Positions 8,761 to 46,040 of a DNA stretch of 64,000 nt are shown in pieces (position 1 is the first letter of the stretch; every line of letters begins with the position of its first letter). The position numbers were made by a program, and so were the translations under genes. Location of the stretch: assembly GCF_001425705.1 (NCBI RefSeq), contig NZ_LMDC01000012.1:601294-665293 (forward strand), in the 5' to 3' direction. The notes beneath the pieces were generated by a model that did no database searches, had not been told where the DNA came from, and saw nothing but the letters and a program-made list of their open reading frames with translations. This DNA comes from Pelomonas sp. Root1217. GTDB lineage: Bacteria; Pseudomonadota; Gammaproteobacteria; Burkholderiales; Burkholderiaceae_C.

Positions 8761-8978
8761 GGGCCGAGCGCCGGGCCGCTCCCTAGCCGGCCCGCGCTGG
8801 CGATGTGCTTGCGGTTCAATGCCGCAAGCATCGCCGTCCCCTCGGGGGCTGAGGCCGGACACGGAAAGTCCTTTGGACTTGCCGTGCCTGCCGAAGGGCA
8901 GCCGCTCTGTCGGCTGCGCGGTCTGCTAGACCGACCAGGCGCGCCCGCGTTCAGCGGGGCGGGACTGGGCGAGGGGCT
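8761..8978 (+). repeat. Stem-loop-rich intergenic repeat, copy A
   Basis: This 218-base element fills the space between tag and the binding-protein gene on the complementary strand. Read on the plus strand it holds a hairpin at 8773-8794, a long stem with loop TCAAT centred at 8818 (GCTTGCGGT/GCCGCAAGC plus ATCGCC flank), a CCCC/GGGG hairpin near 8830-8837, a hairpin around AAGTCC/GGACTT at 8866-8880, GCAGCCG/CGGCTGC at 8899-8918, GGTCT/AGACC near 8920-8932 and a last stem with loop GTTCA near 8950. It is close to copy B at 34501 over its whole length. Its right end, GGCGAGGGGC, overlaps the stop codon of the 8977-9723 gene. Confidence 0.85.
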
Positions 8979-9723
8979 AACGGTATTTGTCAGCAAGTTG
9001 GCGCAGCGTGCCGTCCTTCTCCAGCTTGCGCAGCGCCTGGGTCAGGCGTTCCTCGTGGGCGGCGGGCAGGTCGGCACGCAGCGCAAGGAACTGCGGCTCC
9101 TCCTGGAAGGCGGTGCGGCCGAACTTGAGCTTGTCGCCCAGCTTGCTCTGCGCCACATGGCGCCGCAGGTTGATGTCCTGGCCGTAGATGGCGTCGGCGC
9201 GGCCCATGACCAGCATCTGCAGGGCCTCGCGCTCGGAGCCCACCTCGGCGACGGCCACATTGGCCGACACCAGTCGGCGCGCCAGCGCCGTGCCGCGCAT
9301 GACCAGCACCGGCTTGCGGCGGCTCAAGGCAGCCAACTGGGCCAGGGAATCGGGGTTGCGCGGGTCGTCGGCGCGCTGCACGACCACGTGGCGGACGGTA
9401 TACAGCGCCACCGGCGCATAACGCCACTGTTTCTCGCGCTCGGGCGACTTCAGCAGGCAGAAGAAGGCATCGACGAGCCCCTCGGCCAACGAGCGTTCCA
9501 CGCGCTTGAGCGGCACCAGCTGGTCCAGGCCCGTGAAGTGCAGGCCCGGGTCCTGCCGCTCGACGGCGCGCAGGATTTCCAGGCACAGCCCCGGCTTGAG
9601 CGGGCCGCCGTCGGGGTCGTATTTCACTGTCGAGCTGGCCTGCTGGACTGTGCGCAGCGTCAGCTCCTGGGCCGGCGCCGCCAGGCTCAGCAACGCACTC
9701 AACAACCAGGGCCAGCGCAGCAC
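8977..9723 (-). CDS. Periplasmic solute-binding protein, SBP_bac_3 (amino-acid-type) fold
   Basis: The 248-residue protein has a short signal peptide ending near PAQELTLR and the bilobal pattern of family 3 solute-binding proteins: GLCLEILRAVERQDP, a central hinge, GTALARRLVSANVAVAEVGSEREALQMLVMGRADAIYGQDINL, and a C-terminal RQLADKYR. No permease or ATPase genes are adjacent, so it may serve a distant transporter or act as an orphan sensor-type protein. The ligand is unknown. Its TAG stop is fused to repeat copy A. Confidence 0.85.
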   Translation of the reverse strand: MLRWPWLLSALLSLAAPAQELTLRTVQQASSTVKYDPDGGPLKPGLCLEILRAVERQDPGLHFTGLDQLVPLKRVERSLAEGLVDAFFCLLKSPEREKQWRYAPVALYTVRHVVVQRADDPRNPDSLAQLAALSRRKPVLVMRGTALARRLVSANVAVAEVGSEREALQMLVMGRADAIYGQDINLRRHVAQSKLGDKLKFGRTAFQEEPQFLALRADLPAAHEERLTQALRKLEKDGTLRQLADKYR

Positions 9724-9784
9724 TTAGGATCACGTATCCCGAAAAACATGCGGCAGCATAGCCTTCGACACCGAAAATCCCCTG

Positions 9785-10159
9785 ATGGCCCACCCCCGTT
9801 TCAGTTGCAGCGTCACTGTGCAGTCCCTGCCCGAGCAGACCCATCTCGAGCAAGGTCTGTACGCCTTCAGCTACACGATCACGATCGAGAACACCGGCGA
9901 CGTGCTGTCCCAGCTTATCGGCCGGCACTGGGAGATCACCGACGCGCGTGGCCAGATGCAGGTCGTCGACGGCCTGGCCGTCGTCGGCCACCAGCCGGTG
10001 CTGGCGCCGGGCCAGAGCTTCCAGTACAGCTCGTGGGCGCAGATCGGCACCCCTCAGGGCACCATGCGCGGGCGCTTCCTGTGCGTGACCGAGGGCTGCG
10101 AGGTTTTCCATACCGAGGTCGACGAGTTCCTGCTCGCCGACAGTGCATCCCTCCATTGA
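9785..10159 (+). CDS. apaG: ApaG protein (DUF525)
   Basis: ApaG is a small beta-sandwich protein linked in enterobacteria to Ap4A metabolism and to Co2+/Mg2+ resistance, with no settled biochemical role. The 124-residue protein has the family core: YAFSYTITIENTGD, LIGRHWEITDARG, VDGLAVVGHQPVLAPG and FQYSSWAQIGTPQGTMRG. It starts 61 bases after the divergent binding-protein start. Its stop overlaps the TTG start of the next gene, an arrangement common in betaproteobacteria. Confidence 0.96.
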   Translation: MAHPRFSCSVTVQSLPEQTHLEQGLYAFSYTITIENTGDVLSQLIGRHWEITDARGQMQVVDGLAVVGHQPVLAPGQSFQYSSWAQIGTPQGTMRGRFLCVTEGCEVFHTEVDEFLLADSASLH

Positions 10160-12123
10160 CCTGGGACCTCACCGCCCTCCTGAACGCGGCCGACCCGCAG
10201 GCCGTACTCGCCGAGCGCAATCTGTGGCTGGTGCGCCTGCTGGAATGGCTGCGGCACGCGCCGCGTGAAGAGGCCTCGTTGGGCACGCCGCTGCCCATCG
10301 TGCGCCTCAAGCACCTGCTCAACGTGCTGGAGCGCCACCCCGAGCACGCCTGGGCCTTCGCCAATGTCATCGGCGGGGTCTGGAATGATGTCGACGCGGT
10401 GGCATTGTTTGCCGAGGTGGGCTTTGCACCGCGCATGGCGCTGTGGCATGAGTTCCTCGGCCGGCTGCGCCGCCGCCTGTTGCCGGCCACGACCGACACG
10501 CGCGACCTCGCGGCACTGTTCGAGCTGCTCTTCCCTGACGAGGCCGACGAGGACTGGATCGCCGCCATCGACGATGAGCTGCTGGTGCGGTTGGGCCTGC
10601 TGTTTGCCGCCACGCCCGACGACGGCTGGCGCGTCGAGGCCAACGCCGCGATCACGGTGCTGGTCAGCAGCGTGCATGCCGCCGGCCTGGCCGGTCCGCT
10701 GCGGGTGCGTATGGATGCGGAGCTGGTGCAGGACAAGCCTTTCCACCAACTGCCTGCCGCCTGGGCGGCCGTCGAGCGCGCGCTGGCTGGCGCCAATGAC
10801 GATGGGATCGCACTGGCCTCGGCCATGCAATACCTGCATGCGCTGCTCGACCGCTGCCGTGCCGCCGCGCTGACGGTGCCCGAGCACCTGGAAGCGCATG
10901 GCGTGTCGGTGGACCTGATGTTCTCCGTCGAGCAGCTCACCGCGCGGCTGGACCGCATCGATGCGCTGCTGGCCTGCCTGCTGTCCCACGAACCCCAGCG
11001 CGAGCTGTTGCGCCTGGTGTCGGGCCTGGTGCGCGTCGTGCACGAGCGGCGCAGCCTGCGCACGCTGTTCGCGCGCCACTACTCGCTGATGGCGCGCAAG
11101 GTGGCCGAGCGCAGCGCCGAGACGGGCGAGCACTACATCACCCGCAACCGCGAGGAATACCGCGACATGCTGCGTCGCGCGGCCGGTGGCGGCGCGGTGC
11201 TGGCCGGCACCACCTTCCTGAAGTTCGGCATCGCCCTGCTCGGCTTCACAGCCTTCTGGGGCGGCTTCTGGGCGGGCGTGAACTACGCGGCCTGCTTCGT
11301 CCTTATCCACCTGCTGCACTGGACGGTGGCGACCAAGCAGCCGGCGATGACGGCGCCCGCCATGGCGGACAAGTTGCTGCACATCGACCGCGACGACGCC
11401 ATCGTCGCCTTCGTCGACGAGGTGACCCACCTGGTGCGCTCGCAGGTGGCCGGCATCATTGGCAACCTCGTCGTCGTGGCGCCGCTGGTGCTGGCGGTGC
11501 AGGGCCTGTGCTGGCTGGCCTTCGGCGCGCCGCTGGTGGGCGTGCGCGACGCCGAATACGTGCTGCATTCGCTGAGCCTGTTCGGCCCCTCGCTGCTGTT
11601 CGCCACCTTCACCGGCACGCTGCTGTTCGCGTCCAGCATGATCGCCGGCTGGGTGGAGAACTGGTTCGTCTTCCACCGCCTGGACAGCGCCATCGCCTGG
11701 AACCCGCGCATCATCGCGACGCTGGGCCAGACGCGCGCGCAGCGCTGGTCGCATTGGTGGCGGGCCAACATTTCCGGCCTGACGGCCAACATCAGCCTGG
11801 GCCTGATGCTGGGTCTGGCGCCGGCGCTGTTCGGCTTCGTCGGCCTGGGCCTGGAGGTGCGCCATGTGACGCTGTCCACCGGTCAGCTCGCCGCCGCCGT
11901 AGGTGCGCTGGGTGTCGGCGTCATGACGACCTGGGCCTTCTGGTCCTGCGTGCTGTGCATCGCCGGCATCGGCATGCTCAATGTCGGCGTCAGCTTCTTC
12001 TGCGCCTTCAAGGTGGCGATGCGCTCACGCGGCGTGCGCCTGGCCGACCGCAAGCGCGTCTATGCCGCCATCCGCGCGCGGCTGCGGCGCCAGCCCTTGA
12101 GCTTCCTGATCGCGAGGAGTTAG
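10156..12123 (+). CDS. Gcr-family 'site-specific recombinase' membrane protein (SpecificRecomb, PF10136)
   Basis: This 655-residue protein belongs to the family named after Neisseria Gcr. The start is inferred as the TTG at 10156 overlapping the apaG stop; residues begin MTWDLTALLNAADPQ. No ATG in frame lies near, and further upstream the frame crosses sequence antisense to another gene. The N-terminal half is helical and soluble. The C-terminal half has several hydrophobic segments (for example residues 340-385, 435-470, 485-510 and 545-635). Despite the family name, no tyrosine or serine recombinase catalytic motif is visible, so recombinase activity is doubtful. It follows apaG directly. 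Confidence 0.85.
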   Translation: MTWDLTALLNAADPQAVLAERNLWLVRLLEWLRHAPREEASLGTPLPIVRLKHLLNVLERHPEHAWAFANVIGGVWNDVDAVALFAEVGFAPRMALWHEFLGRLRRRLLPATTDTRDLAALFELLFPDEADEDWIAAIDDELLVRLGLLFAATPDDGWRVEANAAITVLVSSVHAAGLAGPLRVRMDAELVQDKPFHQLPAAWAAVERALAGANDDGIALASAMQYLHALLDRCRAAALTVPEHLEAHGVSVDLMFSVEQLTARLDRIDALLACLLSHEPQRELLRLVSGLVRVVHERRSLRTLFARHYSLMARKVAERSAETGEHYITRNREEYRDMLRRAAGGGAVLAGTTFLKFGIALLGFTAFWGGFWAGVNYAACFVLIHLLHWTVATKQPAMTAPAMADKLLHIDRDDAIVAFVDEVTHLVRSQVAGIIGNLVVVAPLVLAVQGLCWLAFGAPLVGVRDAEYVLHSLSLFGPSLLFATFTGTLLFASSMIAGWVENWFVFHRLDSAIAWNPRIIATLGQTRAQRWSHWWRANISGLTANISLGLMLGLAPALFGFVGLGLEVRHVTLSTGQLAAAVGALGVGVMTTWAFWSCVLCIAGIGMLNVGVSFFCAFKVAMRSRGVRLADRKRVYAAIRARLRRQPLSFLIARS

Positions 12124-12227
12124 TCCTCGCGCCGCTCGCCCTTCTTGCGGCCCGAGAACATGGTCCACCAGATGATGAAGACAAAGATCGCGAGCGCGCC
12201 AAGGGCTTCGAGGGCGAGGAGCAGCAT
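12120..12227 (-). CDS. Putative 35-residue single-span membrane protein
   Basis: On the minus strand an ATG at 12227 opens a 35-codon frame. It encodes one hydrophobic helix (about residues 3-24, including AIFVFIIWWTMF) followed by a basic, charged tail, GRKKGERRED. This positive-inside pattern is what a real small membrane protein looks like. Its start shares bases with the plus-strand mltA start (CATG at 12225-12228), and its stop overlaps the preceding recombinase-family stop. No clear ribosome-binding site is seen, which lowers confidence. Confidence 0.45.
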   Translation of the reverse strand: MLLLALEALGALAIFVFIIWWTMFSGRKKGERRED

Positions 12228-13320
12228 GGGGTGGTGGGCGCGTGGAGGGCTGGCGGCGATTCTAGGAAGCCTGGCCGCCTGCTCGTCGCCGCCCCTGCAG
12301 CCGCCGACCCCGGCACCCGTGACACCGACGGCACTCAAGGCCGCGCCGCGCTGGACCACCGCCGACTGGAAGGAACTGCCGGGTTGGGGGAGTGATGACC
12401 TGCTGGCTGCCTGGCCGGCCCTGCTGGCCAGCTGCCAGCGCCCCGCGCCGGGCTGGGCCGAGTTCTGCGCCCGCGCCGCGCTGCAGGCGCCTGCCGACCC
12501 GCTGGAGGCCGCGCTCTTCCTGATGAAACATCTGCGCCCCTGGCGGCTGCAGGCCGATGGCGGCGAGGCGACGGGCCTGCTGACCGGCTATTTCGAGCCC
12601 CAGCTCGCAGCCAGCCGCACGCGCCAGGGTGCCTTCCAGTGGCCGCTGCATGCCCTGCCCGCCGATGCCGCGCTGCGCCGCACCCCGCGCCGCGACATCG
12701 ACGCCAACCCGCGCTTCGCCGCGCTGGAACTGGCCTATGTCGATGATCCGTTTGCGCTGCTGCAACTGCAGATCCAGGGCTCGGGCCGCCTGGTCATGCG
12801 CGATGCGGCGGGCGCCGAGCGCATCAGCCGCGTCGCCTATGCGGGCCACAACGACCAGCCCTTCCAGTCGGTCGCGCGGGCCTTGCTGGACCGCGGCGAA
12901 GTGAGCGACGCGACGCCGCGCACCTTGAGCGACTGGGCGCGCCGCAACCCGGCCAAGGTGCACGACGCCTTGGCCGTCAACCCGCGCGTCGTCTACTTCC
13001 GCGAGGAGGCCCTGCCCGATGCGAGCCTGGGCCCCCGCGGTGCCCAGGGCGTGCCGCTGACACCAGGCCGTTCCGTCGCCATCGACCGCAGCTACATCGC
13101 ACTGGGCACGCCGCTGTGGCTGGACAGCACCGCGCCGCTATCGACGACCCCACTGCGCCGCCTTGTGCTGGCTCAGGATGCGGGCAGCGCCATCCAGGGC
13201 GCCGTGCGCGCGGACCTGTTCTGGGGCTGGGGCGAGGACGCTGCACTGCAGGCCAGTCGCACCAAGCAGGCGCTGCGGCTGTGGGCGCTGTGGCCCGACG
13301 GGATTACTCCGAGACCTTGA
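12226..13320 (+). CDS. mltA: Membrane-bound lytic murein transglycosylase A
   Basis: MltA cleaves peptidoglycan glycan strands to 1,6-anhydromuropeptides at the outer membrane. The ATG at 12226 has a good ribosome-binding site (GAGGAG at 12216-12221) and yields a 364-residue lipoprotein with lipobox LAAC. The motifs GLLTGYFEPQL, LQLQIQGSGRLV, RVAYAGHNDQPF and, near the C-terminus, LVLAQDAGSAIQGAVRADLFWG (the 3D-type barrel with the catalytic aspartate) identify the family. The 3' end overlaps the convergent DUF427 gene by 17 bases. Confidence 0.95.
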   Translation: MGWWARGGLAAILGSLAACSSPPLQPPTPAPVTPTALKAAPRWTTADWKELPGWGSDDLLAAWPALLASCQRPAPGWAEFCARAALQAPADPLEAALFLMKHLRPWRLQADGGEATGLLTGYFEPQLAASRTRQGAFQWPLHALPADAALRRTPRRDIDANPRFAALELAYVDDPFALLQLQIQGSGRLVMRDAAGAERISRVAYAGHNDQPFQSVARALLDRGEVSDATPRTLSDWARRNPAKVHDALAVNPRVVYFREEALPDASLGPRGAQGVPLTPGRSVAIDRSYIALGTPLWLDSTAPLSTTPLRRLVLAQDAGSAIQGAVRADLFWGWGEDAALQASRTKQALRLWALWPDGITPRP

Positions 13321-13585
13321 CGCCTTTCCAGAAGGCGTAGCGGCCCTTGATCTCGGCTGCGGCGGGCAGCGGGTCGGCGTAGTACCAGACCGCATCCGGG
13401 TTCATCTCGCCGTTGACGAACAGGCTCAGGTACTGCGCCTGGCCCTTCCAGGGGCAGCCGCTGCGGTGGTTGGAGAAGGTCGTGTATTCCTTCTTCAGCG
13501 ATTCGGCCGGGAAATAGTGGTTGCCTTCGACGACCACCGTGTCGTCGCTCTCGGCGATGGTCGCGCCGTTCCACACTGCTTTCAT
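13304..13585 (-). CDS. DUF427 family protein
   Basis: The start at 13585 gives a 93-residue protein beginning MKAVWNGATIAESDDTVVVE. It contains the family core EGNHYFPAESLKKEY and SGCPWKGQAQYLSLFVNG, followed by AVWYYADPLP and RYAFWKGV. DUF427 proteins are small beta-rich proteins of unknown function, common in bacteria and fungi. The start faces the 13610 gene across 24 bases, so the two share a tiny divergent promoter region. Confidence 0.92.
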   Translation of the reverse strand: MKAVWNGATIAESDDTVVVEGNHYFPAESLKKEYTTFSNHRSGCPWKGQAQYLSLFVNGEMNPDAVWYYADPLPAAAEIKGRYAFWKGVKVSE

Positions 13586-13609
13586 CTCTGGCTCCGTGAA
13601 AATGGGTTG

Positions 13610-13849
13610 ATGCGACGCTACCACTCCCACCTCGGCCGCGACATCGTCATCACCGGCGGCAGCGCCCGGGATCTCGACCCCGGCCAGTTCGGCGTGCTCG
13701 CCATTGATGGCGGTGCGGGCGGCTGGTCGGTGGTGCACAAGGGCCCCGACGGGGACGTCGACGAACTCAACAACGAGATGCACTTCGAGACGTGGGAGGA
13801 GGCGCTGGCGTTTGTGAAGGAGTTGATCGGGATGATGACCGCACCATGA
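13610..13849 (+). CDS. Hypothetical 79-residue protein
   Basis: The ATG at 13610 opens MRRYHSHLGRDIVITGG, and the protein ends FVKELIGMMTAP. It is acidic in the middle (DGDVDELNNEMHFETWEEA) with an amphipathic C-terminal helix, and it looks like a compact cytoplasmic protein. I do not recognise a family. Its stop overlaps the start of the glutathione S-transferase gene (ATGA at 13846), so translational coupling is likely. The open frame extends further upstream but overlaps the DUF427 gene and mltA. Confidence 0.65.
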   Translation: MRRYHSHLGRDIVITGGSARDLDPGQFGVLAIDGGAGGWSVVHKGPDGDVDELNNEMHFETWEEALAFVKELIGMMTAP

Positions 13850-14493
13850 ACTCTCCCGCTGCCCCGCTCACCCTCTATGGGGCTGCTGCCTCGGGGTCTG
13901 TGGCTGTCGAAGCCGCGCTGACGCTGCTGGGCCTGCCTTACCAACTGATCGAAGGCGCCACCTGGGCCGAGGCTGCTGCGCGTGATCGCGTCGCGCCGAC
14001 GAATCCCATGCGCCAGATCCCGACGCTGGTGCTGGAGGGCGGCGAGGTCATGACCGAAAGCGCGGCCATCCTGATCTATCTGGCCGACCTGCATCCTGAG
14101 GCGCGGCTGGCGCCGGCACCCAACGACCCGCGGCGGCGGCAGTTCCTGCGCTGGATGCTTTATGTGTCATCGGCCATCTACTCGCTGCACTGGATCAAGC
14201 CGGACGTGAAGCGCATCGGTGCGCCAGACAGCGCGCGAGATGCCGTAGTTAATGCGGTGCATGAGCGCATCGCGTTCTGCTGGTCCAACATGGATCGCCA
14301 GCTGACGCCGGGGCGTTATCTGCTGGGTGATGAGCTGACTGCGCTCGATCTCTACGTCGCCGTCATTTCGCGCTTCGGGCCTTGGCGCGAGCGCTTCTAT
14401 GAGTCTGCGCCGGGCATGACGACAGCCGTGCGGCGCGTCGACGAGGAGCCACGGTTGGCGGCGCTGTGGCGTGAACGTTTTCCGGAAGATTGA
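13846..14493 (+). CDS. Glutathione S-transferase family protein
   Basis: The 215-residue protein starts at the ATG overlapping the previous stop. The N-terminal thioredoxin-like domain has LTLYGAAASGSVAVEAAL, then the cis-proline motif NPMRQIPTLVLEGG and the glutathione-contact motif MTESAAILIYLADLHP. The all-helical C-terminal domain has YLLGDELTALDLYVAVISRFGPW, with the usual N-capping aspartate. The substrate is unknown. It sits in a run of small genes in the same direction (13610-15173). Confidence 0.93.
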   Translation: MNSPAAPLTLYGAAASGSVAVEAALTLLGLPYQLIEGATWAEAAARDRVAPTNPMRQIPTLVLEGGEVMTESAAILIYLADLHPEARLAPAPNDPRRRQFLRWMLYVSSAIYSLHWIKPDVKRIGAPDSARDAVVNAVHERIAFCWSNMDRQLTPGRYLLGDELTALDLYVAVISRFGPWRERFYESAPGMTTAVRRVDEEPRLAALWRERFPED

Positions 14494-14503
14494 GGAGCAA
14501 GCC

Positions 14504-14935
14504 ATGGCTGCGAACCGCATGTCCAAGTTCGACGTCTTCATTGGCACCTGGAACACAAGCGGCGAGGTGCTGGAGACCGACGCTGGCCCTGCAAGCACAC
14601 TGACTGCAACCGACACCTATCGCTGGCTGCCGGGCCGGCACTTCATCGTGCACGAGGTCGATGCACGCTTTGACGGCAAGCCCACGCGCTCGATGGAGGT
14701 CATGGGCTTCGACACGAGCAAGCAGCAGCATTTCGCGCGGTCGTTCGATGACCAGGGCGTGGCCGAGGCCTATGTCGTCGAACTCCATGGCAGGCGCTGG
14801 ACGATCAGCGGCAAGACAGCCAGGTTCAACGGCGGCTTCGATGCAGGGAGAAACCGGCTGACGGGATTCTGGGAGCTCAAGGGCCGAAGGGGCCGGTGGC
14901 AGCCATGGATCAAGCTCGAACTGGCGCGTGCCTGA
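14504..14935 (+). CDS. DUF1579 family protein
   Basis: The ATG at 14504 is preceded by GAGGAGCAAGCC, a good ribosome-binding site, and gives 143 residues. The sequence KFDVFIGTWNTSGEV near the N-terminus, YRWLPGRHFIVHEVDARF and FNGGFDAGRNRLTGFWE match the lipocalin-like pattern of DUF1579, whose members are uncharacterised. It lies 10 bases after the GST gene and is probably cotranscribed with it. Confidence 0.8.
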   Translation: MAANRMSKFDVFIGTWNTSGEVLETDAGPASTLTATDTYRWLPGRHFIVHEVDARFDGKPTRSMEVMGFDTSKQQHFARSFDDQGVAEAYVVELHGRRWTISGKTARFNGGFDAGRNRLTGFWELKGRRGRWQPWIKLELARA

Positions 14936-14945
14936 GGGAGTGGCG

Positions 14946-16876: not shown

Positions 16877-16900
16877 GGTGTCAGGTCAGTTTCTAGCCGA

Positions 16901-16929
16901 CAAAAACAAACAGGCCCCGCGGGGCCTGT
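16901..16929 (-). terminator. Intrinsic terminator on the minus strand
   Basis: A perfect palindrome, ACAGGCCCCGCGGGGCCTGT (16910-16929), is followed on the minus strand by TTTGTTTTTG. It lies 34 bases past the stop of the small gene at 16963 and just before the FAD-dehydrogenase start, so it most likely ends the small gene's transcript. Confidence 0.85.
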
Positions 16930-16962
16930 GTGAGCAAGATCGTCAGGCGATCAGCCCGTCAA

Positions 16963-17127: not shown

Positions 17128-17193
17128 GATGGCTCCGTAAACAAAAGCCCACAGCAGGGGCGAAACGCAAAACAGCGACGAAAGGCAGGGATT

Positions 17194-19302: not shown

Positions 19303-19323
19303 GGGCCGACGGCATCTCAGGCG

Positions 19324-33626: not shown

Positions 33627-34502
33627 ATGAAGACCATGCTGCGCGGCCTGCTGGCCGCCATCGGCCTGTGCGCCGGCCTGGCCCACGCGGCCGACACGCC
33701 GCCGGAGAACCCGGCCTGGACCGAGGCCAAGGCCGTTGCCAAGGCCGGTCCGGCGGACATCGCCATCGCCGGCCAGGCCACGCTGCACCTGCCGGCCGAC
33801 CGCGTCTTCATTCCCCAGCCGCAGGCTGGCAAGCTGCTGACGGCCATGGGCAATCCCGGCCAGCACACCGAGCTGGCCGGCCTTGTCTTTCCCAAGGGCG
33901 AGGGCGAATGGTTCGCCACGCTGCGCTACATCGCCTCCGGCTACGTGAATGACGGCGACGCCAAGGAGTGGAAGGCCGACGAGCTGCTGTCCAGCTACAA
34001 GGAAGGCACCGAAGCCAGCAACGAGGAGCGCAAGAAGATGGGCGTGACGCCCCTCGAAATCATCGGCTGGGCCGAGCCACCCGCCTACGAAGCCACCCAG
34101 CACCGCCTCGTCTGGGCCATGAGCTCCAAGGAAAAGGGCGCGCCGGCCGATGCGGCCTTGGGCGTCAACTACAACACCTATGCCCTGGGCCGCGAGGGCT
34201 ATCTGAGCCTGAACTTCATCACCGGCCTGAAGGACCTGCCGGCGCAGAAGCCTGATGCCAAGGCCCTGCTCGGCGCGCTGGAGTTCGACAAGGGCAAGCG
34301 CTACGAGGATTTCGACTCATCGACCGACCACGTCGCCGAGTACGGCTTGGCGGCGCTGGTCGTGGGCGTCGGCGCCAAGAAACTCGGCCTGCTGGCTGTG
34401 GCCTTCGCCTTCATCGCCAAGTTCGCCAAGATCATCTTCATCGCGGTCGTCGCCTTCGGCGCGGCCATCACCAAGTTCTTCAAGCGCAAGCCGACTGTAT
34501 GA
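33627..34502 (+). CDS. DUF2167 membrane protein
   Basis: The 291-residue protein has a cleavable signal (LCAGLAHAADTPP), a beta-rich periplasmic part with FATLRYIASGYVNDGDAKEW and LEIIGWAEPPAYEATQHRLVWAMSS, and two C-terminal hydrophobic helices (about residues 240-280) ending in KFFKRKPTV. This is the DUF2167 family, of unknown function. It precedes a site-2 protease gene in the same direction, a neighbourhood I recall for this family. Repeat copy B starts at its stop codon and separates the two genes. Confidence 0.9.
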   Translation: MKTMLRGLLAAIGLCAGLAHAADTPPENPAWTEAKAVAKAGPADIAIAGQATLHLPADRVFIPQPQAGKLLTAMGNPGQHTELAGLVFPKGEGEWFATLRYIASGYVNDGDAKEWKADELLSSYKEGTEASNEERKKMGVTPLEIIGWAEPPAYEATQHRLVWAMSSKEKGAPADAALGVNYNTYALGREGYLSLNFITGLKDLPAQKPDAKALLGALEFDKGKRYEDFDSSTDHVAEYGLAALVVGVGAKKLGLLAVAFAFIAKFAKIIFIAVVAFGAAITKFFKRKPTV

Positions 34503-34717
34503 GCCCCTCGCCCAACCTCGCGTCGCTGAACGCGAGCGAGTCTGGTCGGTCTTGCAGACCGCGCAGCCGGCAGAGCGGCTGCTCTTCGGCAGGCACGCCA
34601 AGTCCACAGGACTTGCCGTGTCCGACCTCAGCCCCCGGGGGGACGGCGATGCTTGCGGCATTGAGCCGCAAGCACATCGCCCACGGGCCGGCTTGGGAGC
34701 GGCCCAGCGCTCGGCCC
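34501..34717 (-). repeat. Stem-loop-rich intergenic repeat, copy B
   Basis: This 217-base element is copy A in opposite orientation, with most positions identical. The TCAAT-loop hairpin is perfect here (GCTTGCGGC/GCCGCAAGC; 34649-34671), as are the GGGCCG/CGGCCC, CAAGTCC/GGACTTG and GCAGCCG/CGGCTGC stems. The end reading GCCCCTCGCCCA on the plus strand starts directly after the TGA of the DUF2167 gene. It fills the space up to 18 bases before the site-2 protease start, inside what looks like an operon. Confidence 0.85.
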
Positions 34718-34734
34718 ACGTCGAGAGCTGTCAC

Positions 34735-35454
34735 ATGATCAAGCTGCTGCTTCTGCTGTTCACGGGCGCCAAGTTCGGCAAGCTGCTCGTTACCGGCGGC
34801 AGCATGCTGGTGTCGCTGGTTGTCTACGCGTGGATCTATGGCTGGCGCTACGCAGCCGGCTTCATCGCACTGCTGTTCGTCCACGAGATGGGCCACTTCA
34901 TCGCCGCGCGCTACAAGGGCCTGAACGTCGGCGCGCCGACCTTCATCCCCTTCGTCGGCGCCTGGGTCGAATTGAAGGACATGCCGCACGACGCGCAGAC
35001 CGAGGCCTTCGTCGGCTTGGCCGGGCCACTGCTCGGCACCGTTGGCGCCACGGTCACCTACCTGATGGCGCGCAGCTGGGACGCTGACTGGCTGCTGGCG
35101 GTGTCCTACAGCGGCTTCTTCCTGAACCTGTTCAACCTGATCCCGATCTCGCCCTTCGATGGCGGCCGCATCACGGCCGTGCTGTCGCCGCGCATCTGGC
35201 TGCTGGGCGCGCCCATGCTGGTGGCGCTGTTCTTCTGGCGGCCCAGCCCCATGCTGATCCTGATGGCGCTGCTCGCCTGGCCGCAGCTCATCAAGGCCTG
35301 GCGGCATCGCAGCGACAGCGCCGAGGCGCAGACCTACTACGCCGTGCCGGCCGCCGTGAAGTGGGAGTACGCGACCTACTATCTCGTGCTGGCCGCCTAT
35401 CTTGCCGTCATGTGTCACGACGTGCATGAAATGCTCGCCGTCATGCGGGGCTGA
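34735..35454 (+). CDS. Site-2 protease family zinc metalloprotease
   Basis: The 239-residue membrane protein has the catalytic motif HEMGH at about residues 50-54 within a transmembrane helix (LLFVHEMGHFIAARYKGL) and the second motif FNLIPISPFDGGR (NxxPxxPxDG type) near residue 140. It belongs to intramembrane site-2 proteases that cut membrane-embedded regulators. It has at least five hydrophobic segments. Unlike RseP it has no PDZ domain. The DUF2167 protein upstream is the likely functional partner. Confidence 0.9.
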   Translation: MIKLLLLLFTGAKFGKLLVTGGSMLVSLVVYAWIYGWRYAAGFIALLFVHEMGHFIAARYKGLNVGAPTFIPFVGAWVELKDMPHDAQTEAFVGLAGPLLGTVGATVTYLMARSWDADWLLAVSYSGFFLNLFNLIPISPFDGGRITAVLSPRIWLLGAPMLVALFFWRPSPMLILMALLAWPQLIKAWRHRSDSAEAQTYYAVPAAVKWEYATYYLVLAAYLAVMCHDVHEMLAVMRG

Positions 35455-39840: not shown

Positions 39841-39880
39841 CGACCAGCCCCCATGTGTTGACCAAGCAGCACCCGCGGAA

Positions 39881-39949
39881 CCGGCTTTGCCGGGCCGCTG
39901 GGTGCGCCCCCTTGAGGGGGAGCGCCGAAGGCGCTACGGGGGTGGGCTA
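39881..39949 (-). repeat. Second family of stop-codon-linked hairpin element
   Basis: On the minus strand the sequence starts TAGCCCACCCCCG, where TAG is the stop codon of the binding-protein gene. Three hairpins follow: AGCGCC/GGCGCT around TTC (39921-39935), CCCCC/GGGGG around TCAA (39907-39920) and CCGGC/GCCGG around AAA (39881-39893). It fills most of the 106-base gap before dctQ. The sequence is unrelated to copies A-C. I recall similar GCGCCTTCGGCGC / CCCCCTCAAGGGGG elements in Comamonadaceae-type genomes, unchecked. Confidence 0.7.
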
Positions 39950-41056
39950 TTTCCGGGCGAAGTAGTGGTTCCAGGCCATCTTGAAGTCGACCAGGTAGTC
40001 GTTCTGCCACTGCCCGGCGCGCTGGGCGAAGGCGCGCTGGCTGTCCAGCACCTTCTTGAACAATGGGTTCTCGGCCGATTTCTTGGCGATCACCTTGTCC
40101 CAGCTGTCCAGCTGGTTGCGCAGGATGGCGTCGGGTGTCTTGTAGAAGGCCACGCCCGCCTTCTTCATCTCGGCGTAGTCTTTGGAATTGCGGTCGATGG
40201 CCTTCCAGCTCATGTCAGCGCTGGACGCCTGCACTGCGTAGTCGATGATCTTCTTCAGCTCGCCCGGCAGCGCGTTGTACTTGGCCTTGTTGAACAGGAT
40301 CTCGAACTGCTCGGTGCTCTGGTGAAAGCTCTGCAGCATGCAGTTCTTGGCCACGTCGGGGAAGCCAAGGATGCGGTCGCTGGTGGCGTTGTTGAACTCG
40401 GCCGCATCGATGAGGCCGCGATCCAGCGCCGCGACGATCTCGCCGCCCGGCAGCGGGTTCACGGCCGCGCCCTGTTCGGTGTAGAGGTCTACTGCCAGGC
40501 CCACGGTGCGGAACTTGACGCCCTTCATCTGGTCCAGGTTGGCCACCGGCTTCTTGAACCAGCCATAGGGTTGTGTCGGCATCGGCCCGTACAGGAAGGA
40601 CACCACCTCCATGCTGATGGACTTGTAGATCTCTTCGAGCAGGTCCTCGCCGCCGCCGTAGTTGTGCCAGGACAGCAGCATGTTCGGGTCCATGCCGAAG
40701 CCCGGGCCGGAGCCCCACAGCGCCAGCGCCGAGTTCTTGCCGTAGTGGTAGGCCACCACGCCGTGGCCACCGTCCAGCGTGCCCTTGTTGACGGCCTCCA
40801 GCAGCTGGAAGGCCGGCACGACGGAGCCCGCGGGCAGCACCTCGATCTTCAGGCGGCCGCCGGCCATGTCGTTGACCTTCTTGGCGAAGTCCTGGGCGTA
40901 CTCGTGGAAGATGTCCTTGGCCGGCCAGGTCGACTGGAAGCGCAGGCTGGTCGTCTGCGCCGTCGAGATCATGGGCGCCGCGAGGGCGGCGCCCCCGGCC
41001 GTCGTGGCTGCTGCCGTCTTGATAAAGCGGCGGCGTGCGCTGGGTTTCTGGGTCAT
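39947..41056 (-). CDS. dctP: TRAP transporter substrate-binding protein (DctP family, TakP-like)
   Basis: The 369-residue protein starts with a Tat-type signal (ARRRFIKTAAATTAGGAALAAP). The mature part has LRFQSTWPAKDIFHEYAQDFAKKV, LPAGSVVPAFQLLEAVNKGTLDGGHGV and the ligand-site stretch GLAVDLYTEQGAAVNPLPGGEIVAALDRGLIDAAEFNN. HGVVAYHYGKNSALALWGSGPGFGM resembles the TakP branch that binds 2-oxo acids or lactate through a bound cation. Binding of a monocarboxylate is therefore likely but not proven. It heads the TRAP operon. Confidence 0.93.
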   Translation of the reverse strand: MTQKPSARRRFIKTAAATTAGGAALAAPMISTAQTTSLRFQSTWPAKDIFHEYAQDFAKKVNDMAGGRLKIEVLPAGSVVPAFQLLEAVNKGTLDGGHGVVAYHYGKNSALALWGSGPGFGMDPNMLLSWHNYGGGEDLLEEIYKSISMEVVSFLYGPMPTQPYGWFKKPVANLDQMKGVKFRTVGLAVDLYTEQGAAVNPLPGGEIVAALDRGLIDAAEFNNATSDRILGFPDVAKNCMLQSFHQSTEQFEILFNKAKYNALPGELKKIIDYAVQASSADMSWKAIDRNSKDYAEMKKAGVAFYKTPDAILRNQLDSWDKVIAKKSAENPLFKKVLDSQRAFAQRAGQWQNDYLVDFKMAWNHYFARK

Positions 41057-41269
41057 GGGCTGTCTCCGTTTTGGTGATGCGCCTCGTACAGAACCTGCGA
41101 CCAGGCGCTGGCCGCTGGGGCCGACTGTCTGGCTGGGTGCCGTCCAGGCGCAACTGGGTCAAACCCACGGGATGCCCAAGGCGCCCCGGTGCCGTTCAAA
41201 ATCGCTGAACATTGGCGACAACCCGAATGAACCGCTCCCCGGTCTGCCGGGAACACACTGCGAGCCCAT
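41057..41269. promoter_or_regulatory. Divergent intergenic region, TRAP operon / cytochrome b561 operon
   Basis: These 213 bases separate the starts of dctP (minus) and the cytochrome b gene (plus), so promoters for both operons must lie here. I see no box pair close to consensus and no strong palindrome. Confidence 0.4.
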
Positions 41270-41806
41270 ATGAGCCCTGCCACCCGCTACACCCCCATCG
41301 CCATCGCGCTGCACTGGCTGCTGGCGCTGGCCATCGTCGGCGCCTTCAGCGTGGGCCTGTACATGACCAGCCTGCCGTTCTCGCCGACGCGGCTCAAGCT
41401 CTACAACTGGCACAAATGGGCCGGCGTCACCATCCTGACGCTGTCCGCCTTGCGCCTGCTGTGGCGCCTCACCCATCGCCCGCCAGCCGACATCCCCATG
41501 CCGGCCTGGCAGCTGCGCGCCGCCCATGTGACGCACAACCTGCTCTATGTGCTGTTCTTCGCCGTGCCGCTGTCCGGCTGGGCCTACAGCTCGGCGGCGG
41601 GCTTTCCCATCGTCTGGTTCGGCGTGCTGCCGCTGCCCGACTTCGTGCCCAAGGACAAGGAACTCGCCGAGACGCTGAAGCTGGTGCACCACTTCGCTGC
41701 CTACGGCCTGGGCCTGCTCGTCGCCGGGCATGTCGGCGCCGCCGTCAAGCACCACTTCATCGACCGCGACAGTCTGCTGGGCCGCATGGGCCTGGGTCGC
41801 AACTGA
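41270..41806 (+). CDS. Cytochrome b561 family protein
   Basis: The 178-residue protein has four transmembrane helices and the conserved haem-binding histidines: ALHWLLALAIVGAF in helix 1, NWHKWAGVTILTLSALRLLWR in helix 2, HVTHNLLYVLFFAVPLSGWAYS in helix 3 and LVHHFAAYGLGLLVAGHVGAAVKHH in helix 4. It is a CybB-type diheme quinol oxidase, probably passing electrons to a periplasmic partner. Two YceI genes follow in the same direction, a common combination. Confidence 0.94.
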   Translation: MSPATRYTPIAIALHWLLALAIVGAFSVGLYMTSLPFSPTRLKLYNWHKWAGVTILTLSALRLLWRLTHRPPADIPMPAWQLRAAHVTHNLLYVLFFAVPLSGWAYSSAAGFPIVWFGVLPLPDFVPKDKELAETLKLVHHFAAYGLGLLVAGHVGAAVKHHFIDRDSLLGRMGLGRN

Positions 41807-41826
41807 ACCGCACCTGAAAGGACTTC

Positions 41827-42360
41827 ATGAAACGCCTGCTCATCCCCCTGCTGATCGCCAGCAGCGCCCTGTCCGCCCAGGCAGCCACGCTGCAGCCCGA
41901 GAAAAGCGACCTCAGCTTCACCTTCAAGCAGATGGGCGTGCCGGTGGACGGCAAGTTCAAGAAGTTCGAGGCCCAGCTCGATTTCGACGCCAAGAAGCCC
42001 GAGGCCGGCAAGATCGCCTTCACGGTCGACCTGGGTAGCGTGTCCCTGGGTGACGCCAGTTTCGACGCCGAACTTGCCAAGGCGCCCTGGTTCGACACCA
42101 AGCGCAACGGCAAGGCGACATTTGTGTCCAGCGGCATCAAGGCCACCGGCCCCGGCAAGTACGACGTGGCCGGCAAGCTGACCATCAAGGGCGCCGGCCG
42201 CGACGTCGTCGTGCCCATCACCCTGGCCTCCGGCGTGGCCAGTGGCAGCGTGGCCATCAAGCGCCTCGATTTCAAGATCGGTGACGGCGAATGGGCCGAC
42301 ACCTCCATGGTCGCCAACGACGTGACCGTGAAGTTCAAACTGGCCTTTGCTGGCATCTAG
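41827..42360 (+). CDS. YceI family periplasmic protein (first of a pair)
   Basis: The 177-residue protein has a signal peptide (LLIASSALSAQA) and a YceI lipocalin-like barrel that binds isoprenoid-type lipids in characterised members: LSFTFKQMGVPVDGKFKKFEAQLDFD, VDLGSVSLGDASFDAEL, PWFDTKRNGKATFVSSGI and YDVAGKLTIKGAGRDVVVPI. It starts 20 bases after the cytochrome b gene. The downstream YceI paralogue is clearly different in sequence, so the pair is not a recent duplication. Confidence 0.94.
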   Translation: MKRLLIPLLIASSALSAQAATLQPEKSDLSFTFKQMGVPVDGKFKKFEAQLDFDAKKPEAGKIAFTVDLGSVSLGDASFDAELAKAPWFDTKRNGKATFVSSGIKATGPGKYDVAGKLTIKGAGRDVVVPITLASGVASGSVAIKRLDFKIGDGEWADTSMVANDVTVKFKLAFAGI

Positions 42361-42412
42361 GCTGGCCTGTAATCTCAACCCTTTCCTTCCCCACTCCCCG
42401 GAGACCTTCCCG

Positions 42413-42982
42413 ATGAAGAAAGCCCTGCTGCTCACCGCCCTGTTGGCCGCTGTTGGCGCCGCTCAAGCCCAGAGCGCCACCTACGCCATCGACCCCAGCC
42501 ATACCGCGGTCACCTTCGAAGCCAAGCATTTCGGCACCAGCACGCTGCGCGGCCGCTGGGACAAGAAGGAAGGCACGGTCACGCTGGACAAGGCGGCCAA
42601 GACCGGCAAGGTCGAGTTCACCATCGACATGGCCTCCCTGACCACCGGCACGGCCCCCTTCGACGGCCACCTGAAGAGCAAGGATTTCTTCGCTGTGGAG
42701 GAGTTCCCGACGGCCAAGTTCGTCGGCGACAAGTTCACGTTCAATGGCGACAAGGTCGCCAGCGTGGCCGGCGAGCTGACGCTACGCGGCAAGACCAACC
42801 CGGTGACGCTGACGGCCACCAACTTCAACTGCTACGAGAATCCGCGCCTGAAGCGCGAGGTCTGCGGTGGCGACTTCGAGACCACCATCCAGCGCAGCCA
42901 ATGGGGCATCGTCTATGCGATGCCGGCCGTCACGCCCGACGCCATCCGCCTGCTGGTCCAGGTCGAGGCCATCAAGCAGTAA
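42413..42982 (+). CDS. YceI family periplasmic protein (second of a pair)
   Basis: The ATG at 42413 gives 189 residues with signal LLAAVGAAQA. The barrel has YAIDPSHTAVTFEAKHFGTSTLRGRW, FTIDMASLTTGTAPFDGHLKSKDFFAVEEFPTAKF and LRGKTNPVTLTATNFNCYENP, with two cysteines (NCYENP and REVCGGD). It matches classical YceI better than its upstream neighbour. An intrinsic terminator follows 20 bases after the stop and closes the operon. Confidence 0.95.
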   Translation: MKKALLLTALLAAVGAAQAQSATYAIDPSHTAVTFEAKHFGTSTLRGRWDKKEGTVTLDKAAKTGKVEFTIDMASLTTGTAPFDGHLKSKDFFAVEEFPTAKFVGDKFTFNGDKVASVAGELTLRGKTNPVTLTATNFNCYENPRLKREVCGGDFETTIQRSQWGIVYAMPAVTPDAIRLLVQVEAIKQ

Positions 42983-43002
42983 ACCCGCTGCTTTCCCTCT
43001 TG

Positions 43003-43026
43003 AAGCCCGCCTCTGGCGGGCTTTTT
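43003..43026 (+). terminator. Intrinsic terminator after the YceI operon
   Basis: Stem AAGCCCGCC (43003-43011), loop TCT, stem GGCGGGCTT (43015-43023), then a T-run to 43026. The following 170 bases up to 43197 must hold the promoter of the kinase operon, but no clear boxes were found. Confidence 0.95.
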
Positions 43027-43196
43027 GCTGGGTGATTCGTGAACTATTGCCAGGCCCTTCACGGGGCCGTCATGCGGGGCGGCACGGCCTGTCGCAGCCC
43101 CATGCAGTTCGTCATACGTCCCGGCCGGAGCGTCGCGCCGTGCCCACGCCGCCCAAAGCCCCTGCGTAAAGTGGCTTCCAACGACAGACCCCGGCC

Positions 43197-44639
43197 ATGA
43201 CTCCCTCCTTCTCCCCCAGCCCCCAGCAAAAGCTCTGGATCGAGCGCTGGCAGCGTTTTTCCGCCACGGTGGTGCGGTATTTCCACATCTATGCCGGCTG
43301 GCTGGTCGGCATCAGCTGGAAGCGCTTCGTGCTGCTGTCGCTGGCACTGCTGATCGGCGTCAATGTGCTGAAGAACCTGCCTCCGTTCACCTGGCGCATC
43401 AGCGAGCAGGTCGAGGAGCATGACCACGGTGCCGTGCGCCGTCAGGCCAAGCTCGAGGCCGAGGCTAAGAAGGCCGCCGACCAGGCCCGCAGGGCGGTCG
43501 ACAGAGCCGAAAAGGACGGCAAGAAGGTGGCCGACAAGGGCGTTCACTACGAGGTCAAGATCGACGAGCGTGGCGTGCGCATCCAGCCCGTGCGCTCCGC
43601 AGCCTCGGCAGCCAGCGGCGCCGATGGCGAGAACGGTGAGCCCAAGGCCGACGAGCCACCGGCCATCGCCATCGACTTCCCCAAGAGCGCCCGTCCCGAG
43701 GACATCCGCGCGGCCATCGAGCAGGCCAAGGAGCAGCTCAGCCAGCTCAAGCAGGAGGCGGAGGAGGTCAAGGACGCCCAGCAGGCTGCCGCTGAGGCAC
43801 AGACCGCGCTGCAGGAGGCCGTCGAGGAGGCCGCCAACGCCCAGAACCGCCGCCGCGTCACCATCGTGCATGCCGGCGACTCGCTGGTCGACCTGGCCAT
43901 CCTGTGGATCCTGGCCTCGGCCGTCATCAAGGCGATGTACAAGGGCCGCATCCAGGCCGAAGTCAAGGCGGCCCAGGCGGCCGAAAACGCCGAGAGCGAG
44001 GCGCTGAAGCGCCAGGTCATCGAGGCCCGCATGGCTGCCATGCAGGCCCAGGTCGAGCCGCACTTCCTGTTCAACACGCTGGCCTCCATCGACCACCTGA
44101 TCGAGACCGACCCGCCGCGCGCCAGTCAGATGCAGAAGAACCTGATCGCACTGCTGCGGGCTTCCATGCCCACCATGCGCGAGGCCAATGCCACCGCGAC
44201 CCGTGACCTGGGCCGCGAGCTGGCTGTCATCCGGCCCTATCTCGAGATCCTCAAGGTGCGCATGGAAGAGCGCCTGCAGACCGAGATCGACGTGCCCGAG
44301 GGCCTGCTGTCCGCAGAATTCCCGCCCATGATGATCCAGGGCCTGGTCGAAAACGCCATCAAGCATGGCCTGGAGCCCAAGGCCGAGGGCGGCACGCTCA
44401 AGGTCAAGGCCGAGATCGTGCATGGCAAGCTGGCCGTCACGGTCGCCGACACCGGCCTGGGCTTCGGACGCGCCGCCACCAGCGGCACCGGCGTGGGCCT
44501 GGCCAATATCCGCGAACGCCTGCAACTGCTGCACGGCAACCGCGCCAGCGTCACCGTCACCGAGAACCAACCCAGTGGCACGGTCGTCACGATCACCGTG
44601 CCCTATCGCAGCCGCAACGACGAAGGAGTCGCAGCATGA
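43197..44639 (+). CDS. LytS/YehU-type sensor histidine kinase with a long coiled-coil extracytoplasmic region
   Basis: The 480-residue kinase has TM1 at about residues 43-60, a charged helical segment of about 165 residues (AKLEAEAKKAADQARRAVDRAEKDG, later EQAKEQLSQLKQEAEEVKDAQQAA), TM2 at about 227-245 and a His_kinase (PF06580) domain with QAQVEPHFLFNTLASIDHLIE, where the histidine is phosphorylated. The ATPase follows: MMIQGLVENAIKHGLEP and GVGLANIRERLQLLHG. Its partner is the LytTR regulator at 45059. A small membrane protein is encoded between them and overlaps this stop (ATGA). Confidence 0.92.
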   Translation: MTPSFSPSPQQKLWIERWQRFSATVVRYFHIYAGWLVGISWKRFVLLSLALLIGVNVLKNLPPFTWRISEQVEEHDHGAVRRQAKLEAEAKKAADQARRAVDRAEKDGKKVADKGVHYEVKIDERGVRIQPVRSAASAASGADGENGEPKADEPPAIAIDFPKSARPEDIRAAIEQAKEQLSQLKQEAEEVKDAQQAAAEAQTALQEAVEEAANAQNRRRVTIVHAGDSLVDLAILWILASAVIKAMYKGRIQAEVKAAQAAENAESEALKRQVIEARMAAMQAQVEPHFLFNTLASIDHLIETDPPRASQMQKNLIALLRASMPTMREANATATRDLGRELAVIRPYLEILKVRMEERLQTEIDVPEGLLSAEFPPMMIQGLVENAIKHGLEPKAEGGTLKVKAEIVHGKLAVTVADTGLGFGRAATSGTGVGLANIRERLQLLHGNRASVTVTENQPSGTVVTITVPYRSRNDEGVAA

Positions 44640-45040
44640 AAACCTTGTTCAAGATCCTGTTCATCGGCACCGCGTTGATGGTGCTGATGGCAATGTTCGG
44701 CGGCTTTGCGCTGCTGCACCACCATGGCGGCCCGGACATGCACATCGTGCTGGACGACGGCGAGTTCTTCCTGGGCGGCAGCGATGTCGGCGACTGGCTG
44801 GGCGCGACCATCGGCCTGTTCGTCGCCGGGATCATCTGCGTCATCGTCGTGCCACTGGTGCTGCTGCTGGGCGTGGCCCTGCCGCTGCTCATCGTCGGCG
44901 GCGTGCTGGCCCTGGTCGTCGCCAGCCTGCTGGGCGTCGGTGCCGTGCTCGGCTCGCCGCTGATCCTGCTCGGCCTGCTGCTCTTCGTCGTCATGCGCAA
45001 CCGCCGCCGCGCGAACGCTGCCAGGTCGACGCCTGTCTGA
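44636..45040 (+). CDS. Small membrane protein between sensor kinase and response regulator
   Basis: The 134-residue protein has a first helix (about residues 5-27), an exposed segment with HHHGGPDMHIVLDDGEFFLGG, then a long hydrophobic stretch (about 55-120) that makes two or three helices, and a basic tail MRNRRRANAARS. Its start overlaps the kinase stop. No family is recognised. Its position suggests an accessory component of the two-component system, such as a sensor helper. The histidine- and acid-rich loop could bind metal; this is inference. Confidence 0.75.
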   Translation: MKTLFKILFIGTALMVLMAMFGGFALLHHHGGPDMHIVLDDGEFFLGGSDVGDWLGATIGLFVAGIICVIVVPLVLLLGVALPLLIVGGVLALVVASLLGVGAVLGSPLILLGLLLFVVMRNRRRANAARSTPV

Positions 45041-45058
45041 GCTAGTAGCATCGTCGGC

Positions 45059-45883
45059 ATGAACACTGCAGCACCCATCCGCGCCGTTCTGGCCGACGAC
45101 GAAAGACTGATGCGCGAGCAACTGCGCGCCCGATTGACCGAGGTCTGGCCGGAGCTGGACATCGTCGCCGAGGCCAAGAACGGCCTTGAGGCGGTCGAGC
45201 TGACCAAGGAGCACAAGCCCGACATCGTCTTCCTCGACATCCGCATGCCGGGCCTGACGGGCGTGGACGCCGCCCGCCAGATCGCCCAGCTGCCTGAGGA
45301 CGACGACTGGCTGGTGCCGGAGATCGTCTTCATCACCGCCTACGACCAGTACGCCGTCGAGGCCTTCGAGCAGGGTGTGGCCGACTACGTGCTCAAGCCC
45401 GCCGAGCGCGAGCGCTTGCAGCTGACGGTGGCCCGCATCAAGAAGCGCCTGGCTCAGCGCGAGGCGCCCTCCAACGACTTCAGCGACAGCGCGCCGGTGC
45501 CGCTGCAGCAGTTGCTGCACAAGCTGTCGGGGCAGATGAACCCGGCTGGCAAGCCGCAATACCTGCAGTGGATCCAGGCCACGGTTGGCCAGGCCATCCA
45601 GATGATCCCGGTCGAGGACGTGCTGTTCTTCATCAGCGACGAGAAGTACACCCGGGTGCAGACGGCCAAGGTCGAGGCCTTGATCCGCAAACCGATCAAG
45701 GAGCTGGTGGACGAGTTGGACCCGCAGGTCTTCTGGCAGATCCACCGCTCCACGCTCGTGAATGCCCGCGCCATCGATGGCATCACCCGCGACTTCCGCG
45801 GCCGCCAGCTGGTGGGAGTGCGCGGCTTAACCGAGAAGCTCGAAGTCAGCCGTAGCTACACCCACCTGTTCAAAGGGATGTAG
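45059..45883 (+). CDS. LytTR-family response regulator
   Basis: The 274-residue protein has a receiver domain (VLADDERLMREQLRARL with the acidic pocket, IVFLDIRMPGLTGVD with the phospho-acceptor aspartate, FITAYDQYAVEAFEQGVADYVLKPA) and a C-terminal LytTR DNA-binding domain (IPVEDVLFFISDEKYTRVQT, FWQIHRSTLVNARAIDGI). It is the partner of the kinase upstream. LytTR regulators bind direct repeats, often in their own upstream regions. Repeat copy C begins 22 bases after its stop. Confidence 0.94.
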   Translation: MNTAAPIRAVLADDERLMREQLRARLTEVWPELDIVAEAKNGLEAVELTKEHKPDIVFLDIRMPGLTGVDAARQIAQLPEDDDWLVPEIVFITAYDQYAVEAFEQGVADYVLKPAERERLQLTVARIKKRLAQREAPSNDFSDSAPVPLQQLLHKLSGQMNPAGKPQYLQWIQATVGQAIQMIPVEDVLFFISDEKYTRVQTAKVEALIRKPIKELVDELDPQVFWQIHRSTLVNARAIDGITRDFRGRQLVGVRGLTEKLEVSRSYTHLFKGM

Positions 45884-45904
45884 CCGGAAGGAACGTGTTT
45901 GGCG

Positions 45905-46040
45905 CGGGCCGCGCGCCGGGCCGCTCCCAAGGCGGCCCGTGGGCGATGTGCTCGCCGGTCAATCCGGTGAGCATCGCCGTCCCCTTGGGGGACCGACTGG
46001 GCTTGCCCGCGTTCAGCAGGGCAAGACCAGGCGAGGGGCA
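45905..46040 (+). repeat. Stem-loop-rich intergenic repeat, copy C (short form)
   Basis: This 136-base element shares both ends with copies A and B but lacks their central 80-90 bases. The first hairpin is CGGGCCGC/GCGGCCCG (45917-45940). The TCAAT-loop stem is GCTCGCCGG/CCGGTGAGC (45950-45972), with different bases but intact pairing. The last stem is CTTGCCCGC/GCAGGGCAAG around GTTCA (46002-46025). The GGCGAGGGGC end is one base from the stop codon of fpr on the other strand. Confidence 0.8.

Follow-up and report, generated by a model that had tools for sequence, protein, structure and literature searches.

What holds one end of a repeat against the stop codons of unrelated genes? The question is raised by a stretch of 64,000 nucleotides from Pelomonas sp. 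Root1217 (contig NZ_LMDC01000012.1, positions 601,294 to 665,293; the whole stretch is called the window here), which carries three copies, A, B and C, of a hairpin-rich repeat whose left end lies at or within two bases of a stop codon. For these copies an initial annotation, made from the letters alone, had proposed either that the element moves by targeting gene ends or that it works as an RNA element of the 3' untranslated region (3'-UTR). Judged from comparison of sequences, it may well be a dispersed repeat within one betaproteobacterial family; it would enter, or survive at, the site directly behind stop codons, left end first, and would be bridged within operons. The best reading of the data is that the anchoring arises by insertion or by selection at gene ends, and that bridging by ribosomes is a condition of survival in operons. 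What was observed directly is the position and polarity of the repeat, its presence or absence between species, its two open frames, and an excess of start codons and of open reading frame (ORF) ends.

The left end, RCCCCTCGYC, is almost invariant among 119 copies, and for 98 of these the automatic gene finder placed it between +1 and -12 of a stop codon on the same strand. Two copies (L024 and L036) were miscalled as lying inside a gene, their true positions being -6 and -10, and of 13 more copies with a readable left end 11 hug a stop (L051 and L065 included) and two (the second L098 copy and L128) do not, for a total of 111 anchored copies out of 132; L106 was not placed and stands outside this count. 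The initial claim that the end is always joined to a stop was therefore too strong, there being 21 exceptions, but a peak within three bases of the stop, named at the time as support for a link with gene ends, is present: 44 of the 98 anchored copies lie at +1 to -2, the distances peaking at -1 (22 copies), -6 (15) and 0 (11), and there is an additional mode at -6/-7 (24 of 98), where TGAnATGRA often occurs. Uniform placement over non-coding positions (23,976 on both strands of 104 kb) would anchor 3.5% of copies, and placement weighted by the flank motif 8.4% (binomial p = 7e-84 for 98 of 119); in gaps of 25 nt or less the motif-weighted expectation is 70%, still under the observed proportion (p 0.002). 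TGAA (25 of 119) and TGGA (11 of 119) are enriched in the left flank. The stops at the copies are TGA in 79 cases, TAG in 12 and TAA in 7, which resembles the 67, 18 and 11 of the 104-kb sample, so TGA is not clearly preferred.

In convergent gene pairs, where there is no ribosome-binding site to spare, the left end was still nearer its stop than the right end was in 23 of 23 cases (medians 2 and 21 nt). The anchoring recurs in related genomes, with 25 of 27 copies anchored among the best-scoring matches in other species of the genus (the exceptions being L339, which may be a gene-finder failure, and L343) and, in the same family, 18 of 20 copies from five other genera (the exceptions being L360 and L367, the latter perhaps also a gene-finder failure). 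The shared polarity relative to the gene, first noted on three copies, is strong across the genome and holds in these five genera as well.

Among the exceptions are two 74-nt copies inside genes and in frame (L012:1137-1210 on the minus strand and L080:1201-1274 on the plus strand), one in a Peptidase_S9 and the other in a Peptidase_M3 gene; they read SPSPLGTAAVPRGDAAALGSGPAGG and SPSPTVTSAVPQGDAAALGSGPAGG, have the common peptide SPSP..GDAAALGSGPAGG, and represent a pattern found in 1 of 20 genomes of the genus, the source genome only. At L021, L049, L052 and L166 the frame of the gene enters the repeat and would stop at the repeat's own TGA (GCTGAAC), 27-28 nt in. Four copies (L102, L131, L134 and L157) are next to a divergent gene's start codon, as by reading are L055 and both L114 copies, up to seven in total. 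No category fits L016, the first L025 copy, L053, L113, L138, L140, L128 or the second L098 copy. As a separate observation, L113 lies 67 nt past a stop, close behind a hairpin with a T-run that resembles an intrinsic terminator, with the flank TGACATGAACCA.

What we think is the strongest functional clue was absent from the initial annotation, namely an ORF that bridges the repeat between co-directional genes. Frame 1 is open right through in 94 of 114 copies, frame 2 in 87 and frame 0 in 24. In 40 of 64 co-directional copies an ORF opens from an ATG that lies across or after the stop of the upstream gene, compared with 4 of 26 convergent ones (Fisher p 5e-5) and with 6 of 42 gaps of 90-330 nt that contain no repeat. 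Taking as an exact bridge an ORF that ends at the start of the next gene in the form TGAnATG, TGATG-type or ATGA, the ORF from the ATG ends exactly there in 22 of 64 copies versus 0 of 42 control gaps (p 3e-6), and bridges with any start codon number 27 of 64 versus 2 of 42 (p 1e-5). These are the copies with a coupled-ORF arrangement (NTGA, TGATG or a short-gap stop/start) at both ends; the spacing motifs of translational coupling, together with polarity and re-initiation, are treated in the accessible part of PMC12548453. The form TGAnATG marks 19 of the 64 next genes, as against 2 among 97 ordinary genes (p 4e-7) and a single one among 42 control gaps (p 3e-4), and TGA at next-gene starts alone could explain part of the bridging excess. 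A register test limited to the two open frames corrects for the mere presence of this TGA, and in it the start and stop registers coincide for 22 of the 28 informative copies (p 0.002) and, in other genomes, for 8 of the 10 (p 0.055). Both open frames serve as bridging frames and no three-base periodicity was seen in the variation of the repeat, so that translation rather than the peptide seems to matter; selection on the peptide was ruled out on the same lack of periodicity. Among short forms both frames are open in 36 of 42 co-directional copies versus 13 of 24 convergent or far copies (p 0.008), internal stops in frames 1 and 2 being commoner in convergent or distant copies.

Sites differ between species. 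Between flgJ and flgK the repeat is found in 3 of 20 genomes of the genus (G000, G012 and G004); in the other 17 no repeat was seen at this site, L188 having a different sequence there. Between eno and ftsB 15 of 18 loci of the genus were readable, and of these G000 and G006 are filled in gene orientation, G009 (L209) carries the repeat reversed, the left end abutting the start codon of ftsB, which reads TCCATG, and 12, including that of the close relative G012, are without it. The end of enolase is unchanged at filled and empty sites (FYNLK or FYNLR), which places the repeat behind the native eno stop. FlgK and enolase, like the two peptidases above, were identified by Pfam, and flgJ and ftsB are what we take the remaining two genes to be from their sequences. 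Matches to Y1_Tnp, the domain of the transposases associated with repetitive extragenic palindromes (RAYT; the palindromes themselves are REPs), occur throughout the genus, 1-4 in each of the 20 genomes and 40 in total. No convincing copy of the repeat was seen at the 12 of these 40 loci that were examined (best model score 16.6 bits), on which grounds RAYT was rejected as the driver, and the two Y1 genes of the source genome have no repeat within 5 kb among the matches listed.

Within an operon, ribosomes finishing the first gene would re-initiate on the start codon beside its stop (TGAnATGRA or ATGA), would translate through the repeat and unfold it in either open frame, and would stop at the start codon of the second gene (TGAnATG or ATGA). 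Such a bridge would keep coupling and transcription going and would expose no bare RNA to Rho; it would make an insertion tolerable and favour copies close behind a stop. Convergent copies, with no gene to couple and mostly no bridging ATG, are anchored all the same, which implies that anchoring also comes from the insertion process or from a role at the 3' ends of genes.

A number of observations weigh against insertion or survival behind stops with bridging in operons. No exact bridge is present in 37 of the 64 co-directional copies, copy A among them, and convergent copies hug their stops without any. Elsewhere in the genus the ATG contrast, 12 of 24 versus 0 of 4, is not significant alone (p 0.11), and of 22 co-directional copies that have a start codon 9 are bridged; in the other genera 4 of 8 co-directional copies are bridged. 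The antisense frames are likewise open (0.67-0.92), which makes the openness in part a feature of GC-rich DNA, and all gene ends and start codons are predictions of a codon-usage gene finder trained on the window. The similarity of flanks expected of a duplicated junction is weak, being 5.06 for own pairs versus 4.80 +/- 0.13 for shuffled pairs of 60 co-directional copies, a value reached by 70 of 2000 permutations; target-site duplication was set aside as the origin of the left ATG, the left flank and the start of the next gene being barely more similar than shuffled pairs. Nor did we find a mobilising enzyme, a clear target duplication or a fixed target motif, and this bears equally on the proposal that the element moves by targeting gene ends, with which the filled and empty sites at eno-ftsB and flgJ-flgK are compatible.

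The three copies in the window lie where the initial annotation had put them, to within one or two bases, and its stop distances and upstream genes agree with ours:

8760..8977, minus strand: copy A, of the long form and 218 nt in length; its left-end base, 8977, is also the final base of the TAG stop (8979-8977)
8977..9723, minus strand: gene upstream of copy A, SBP_bac_3-like solute-binding protein (Pfam)
8062..8682, minus strand: gene downstream of copy A, co-directional, methyladenine glycosylase (Adenine_glyco, Pfam)
34503..34718, plus strand: copy B, long form, with TGA directly before the left end
34499..34738, plus strand: bridging ORF of copy B, 79 codons, crossing the whole repeat
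33627..34502, plus strand: gene upstream of copy B, DUF2167 (Pfam)
34735..35454, plus strand: gene downstream of copy B, M50 peptidase, start taken at 34735 (Pfam)
45905..46039, minus strand: copy C, short form, 135 nt, in a convergent gene pair, left end 2 nt (GT) past the TGA stop (46044-46042)
46042..46818, minus strand: gene upstream of copy C, oxidoreductase with FAD_binding_6 and NAD_binding_1, consistent with fpr (Pfam)
45059..45883, plus strand: convergent gene behind the right end of copy C, LytTR response regulator

The SBP_bac_3 match of the gene upstream of copy A scores 25.8 bits, slightly below the Pfam cut-off of 26.4, and no ORF bridges this copy (L033). Copy B is a clean bridging case, since the ATG of its bridging ORF overlaps the DUF2167 stop (ATGA, 34499-34502) and the stop of that ORF lies within the ATGA of the next gene (34735-34738). 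The stop of the LytTR gene is 21 nt from the right end of copy C.

The repeat is modular, with four or more hairpins (modules M1-M4), and no gene of its own was seen in it. M1 has either a hairpin centred on GCTGAAC or a shorter version, CCAAGG..CCTTGG; M2 reads GGTCCCC-NNN-GGGGACG, M3 CGATGCTTGC..GCAAGCACATCG, and M4 is the end GGGCCGGCT..CGGCCC; long optional blocks, one between M1 and M2 and another within M4, give unit lengths of about 118, 137, 208, 218 and 270-290 nt. The right end, CTCGGCCCG, is followed by variable A-rich sequence, and by reading it is not an inverted copy of the left end, so that terminal inverted repeats were not seen. A side observation, noticed by reading and uncounted, is that position 9 of the left end tends to change with the base before CGG in M2 (C mostly goes with GGTCGG, T with GGCCGG), although the two do not form a Watson-Crick pair.

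The exact end GCCCCTCGCC occurs 88 times in the genome, some occurrences lying outside repeat copies, compared with 9 for a reversed-pattern control. The covariance model gave at least 136 matches, long copies sometimes counting twice, and this is a lower bound because 150 of 14,653 first-look candidates were scored. A core pattern was present in 20 of 20 genomes of the genus, 2 of the 16 other genera of the family that were tried and 0 of 24 genomes of other families, and was absent from 275 other genomes of the class (2 of the same family); a second, stricter pattern was found in 9 of 150 genomes of the family, 7 of these in other genera. With at most 150 candidates scored in each, the genomes of the genus have at least 17-148 model matches apiece and at least 1,311 together, where one long copy may give two. 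Named records with model matches are Pelomonas sp. Root1444, a Burkholderiales metagenome-assembled genome and, weakly, Roseateles toxinivorans. A DNA search with copy B and a consensus-peptide search in plasmids gave no match.

Other explanations differ in what they make of these data. More tentatively than the reading preferred above, the repeat might be a portable bridging mini-cistron, a mobile element that would bring or acquire a start codon, slot in behind a stop codon, and be translated in whichever of its two open frames restores the register of the next gene, thereby spreading through operons without polar effects; it would then be a selfish element adapted to the ribosome and not to a DNA target. 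That insertion-site specificity alone is at work seems to us rather doubtful. Here a transposase would join the left end to some brief motif, for instance TGRA or ATGRA, and selection would purge insertions that break genes, stop codons being simply the commonest tolerated TGA. The TGAA and TGGA of the left flank, the high motif-weighted expectation in short gaps, the reversed copy abutting TCCATG and the several copies adjoining divergent starts all count in its favour, but over all non-coding positions the motif accounts for far fewer anchored copies than were observed, it is not fixed, the stop lying anywhere from +1 to -12, and the left ATG occurs mainly before a co-directional gene, which is unlike a DNA target motif.

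The strand on which the hairpins might act separates two further accounts. Hairpins behind the stop could stabilise the 3' end, stall terminating ribosomes or aid termination, as the initial annotation had proposed, and this accords with the fixed polarity, with positions within 15 nt of stops, with compensatory changes in stems M1 and M3, and with the report, in the accessible part of PMC12306157, that E. coli REPs no more than 15 nt past a stop stall ribosomes. If hairpins in the mRNA were selected, G.U should outnumber other deviations, yet on the mRNA strand of 58 short copies (pairs that are Watson-Crick in >60% of copies) we counted 1927 Watson-Crick cells, 89 A.C, 9 G.U and 55 other, cells that are not independent because the copies share ancestry; selection of this kind is not supported. 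Co-directional repeats can be read right through, often as a bridging ORF, and a T-run past the right end is lacking (T 0.02-0.22 at the six positions behind CCCG, n=114), the flank there being A-rich, unlike that of an intrinsic terminator. Rfam 15 gave no match above gathering score for the window and 12 distinct loci, the two matches listed by E-value both being far under theirs. We therefore consider a 3'-UTR RNA role unlikely. The same asymmetry would also agree with a fold in the opposite strand, whether that is RNA or single-stranded DNA. A recombinase of HUH or other single-strand type might recognise the folded strand opposite the mRNA, much as the bottom strands of integron attC sites or the ends of IS200/IS605 are recognised, anchoring following from its manner of joining ends, and the excess of A.C over G.U (wobble pairs on that strand), the almost invariant left end and the Y1 transposase genes throughout the genus agree with this. 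We nevertheless regard it as the least probable of these accounts: G>A exceeds C>T about 2:1 in unpaired columns too (26 to 14), the 12 Y1 loci gave no convincing copy, and attC cores (RYYYAAC ... GTTRRRY) are by reading not present at the repeat ends, the fixed place behind stops being the likeness to attC. The opposite strand is the more stable in 45 of 58 short copies, a difference dropped as evidence since a simulation with mutation bias gives an equal or greater one. Our view is that the stem asymmetry weighs against a role of mRNA structure more than it proves one of the opposite strand, and that mutation bias explains part of it.

Compared with known repeats, this is a dispersed palindromic repeat family partly like REPs, QMITE2 and the Rickettsia palindromic elements (RPEs), with the full defining features of none, the comparison being with what the accessible parts of the sources say. 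E. coli REPs and bacterial interspersed mosaic elements (BIMEs) are also high-copy hairpin repeats between genes and partly near stops (446 of 4,072, or in an earlier count 260 of 496, within 15 nt; PMC12306157), whereas here 111 of 132 copies are anchored, with one fixed end and polarity, and the modular unit of 118-290 nt is readable through, with no GTAG/CGTC tag recognised. A REP is a single palindrome of 20-40 bp with an unpaired GTAG or CGTC tag (PMC3733652), in contrast to at least four hairpins and the left end RCCCCTCGYC here, and the association of GTAG-class REPs with a RAYT (Y1) locus did not appear at the 12 loci. QMITE2 of Coxiella burnetii (150-190 bp, mainly in 3' untranslated or intergenic DNA, with one case that extends into the end of a gene) carries terminal inverted repeats and direct repeats of 7-11 nt, which were not seen here, and its accessible description reports no bridging ORF (PMC5896051). 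RPEs can lie in frame inside unrelated genes, in R. conorii nearly half of them being intragenic (PMC10969869), and in this respect the two 74-nt copies, both read in the same frame, resemble them; the 74-nt form accounts for both intragenic copies here, the rest being mostly behind stop codons. For ERIC / RU, intergenic units of about 103-168 bp with ORFs that are sometimes intragenic, neither stop anchoring nor operon bridging is reported in the parts seen (PMC2759123, PMC10969869). In the literature within reach, which mostly excluded subscription journals, and in the accessible parts of it, nothing was found on this repeat, on equally strict anchoring or on bridging ORFs.

For the palindromic repeats of bacteria the usual explanations are tolerance in non-coding DNA, supercoiling or RNA stability. 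For the repeat described here, the sharp place and the constrained reading point to a testable rule, that a repeat within an operon survives if it can be crossed by ribosomes. The rule may also account for short hypothetical ORFs that lie between the genes of this bacterial group, and the 20 genomes, with their at least 1,311 model matches, would offer many natural copies for the study of re-initiation, coupling and Rho polarity.

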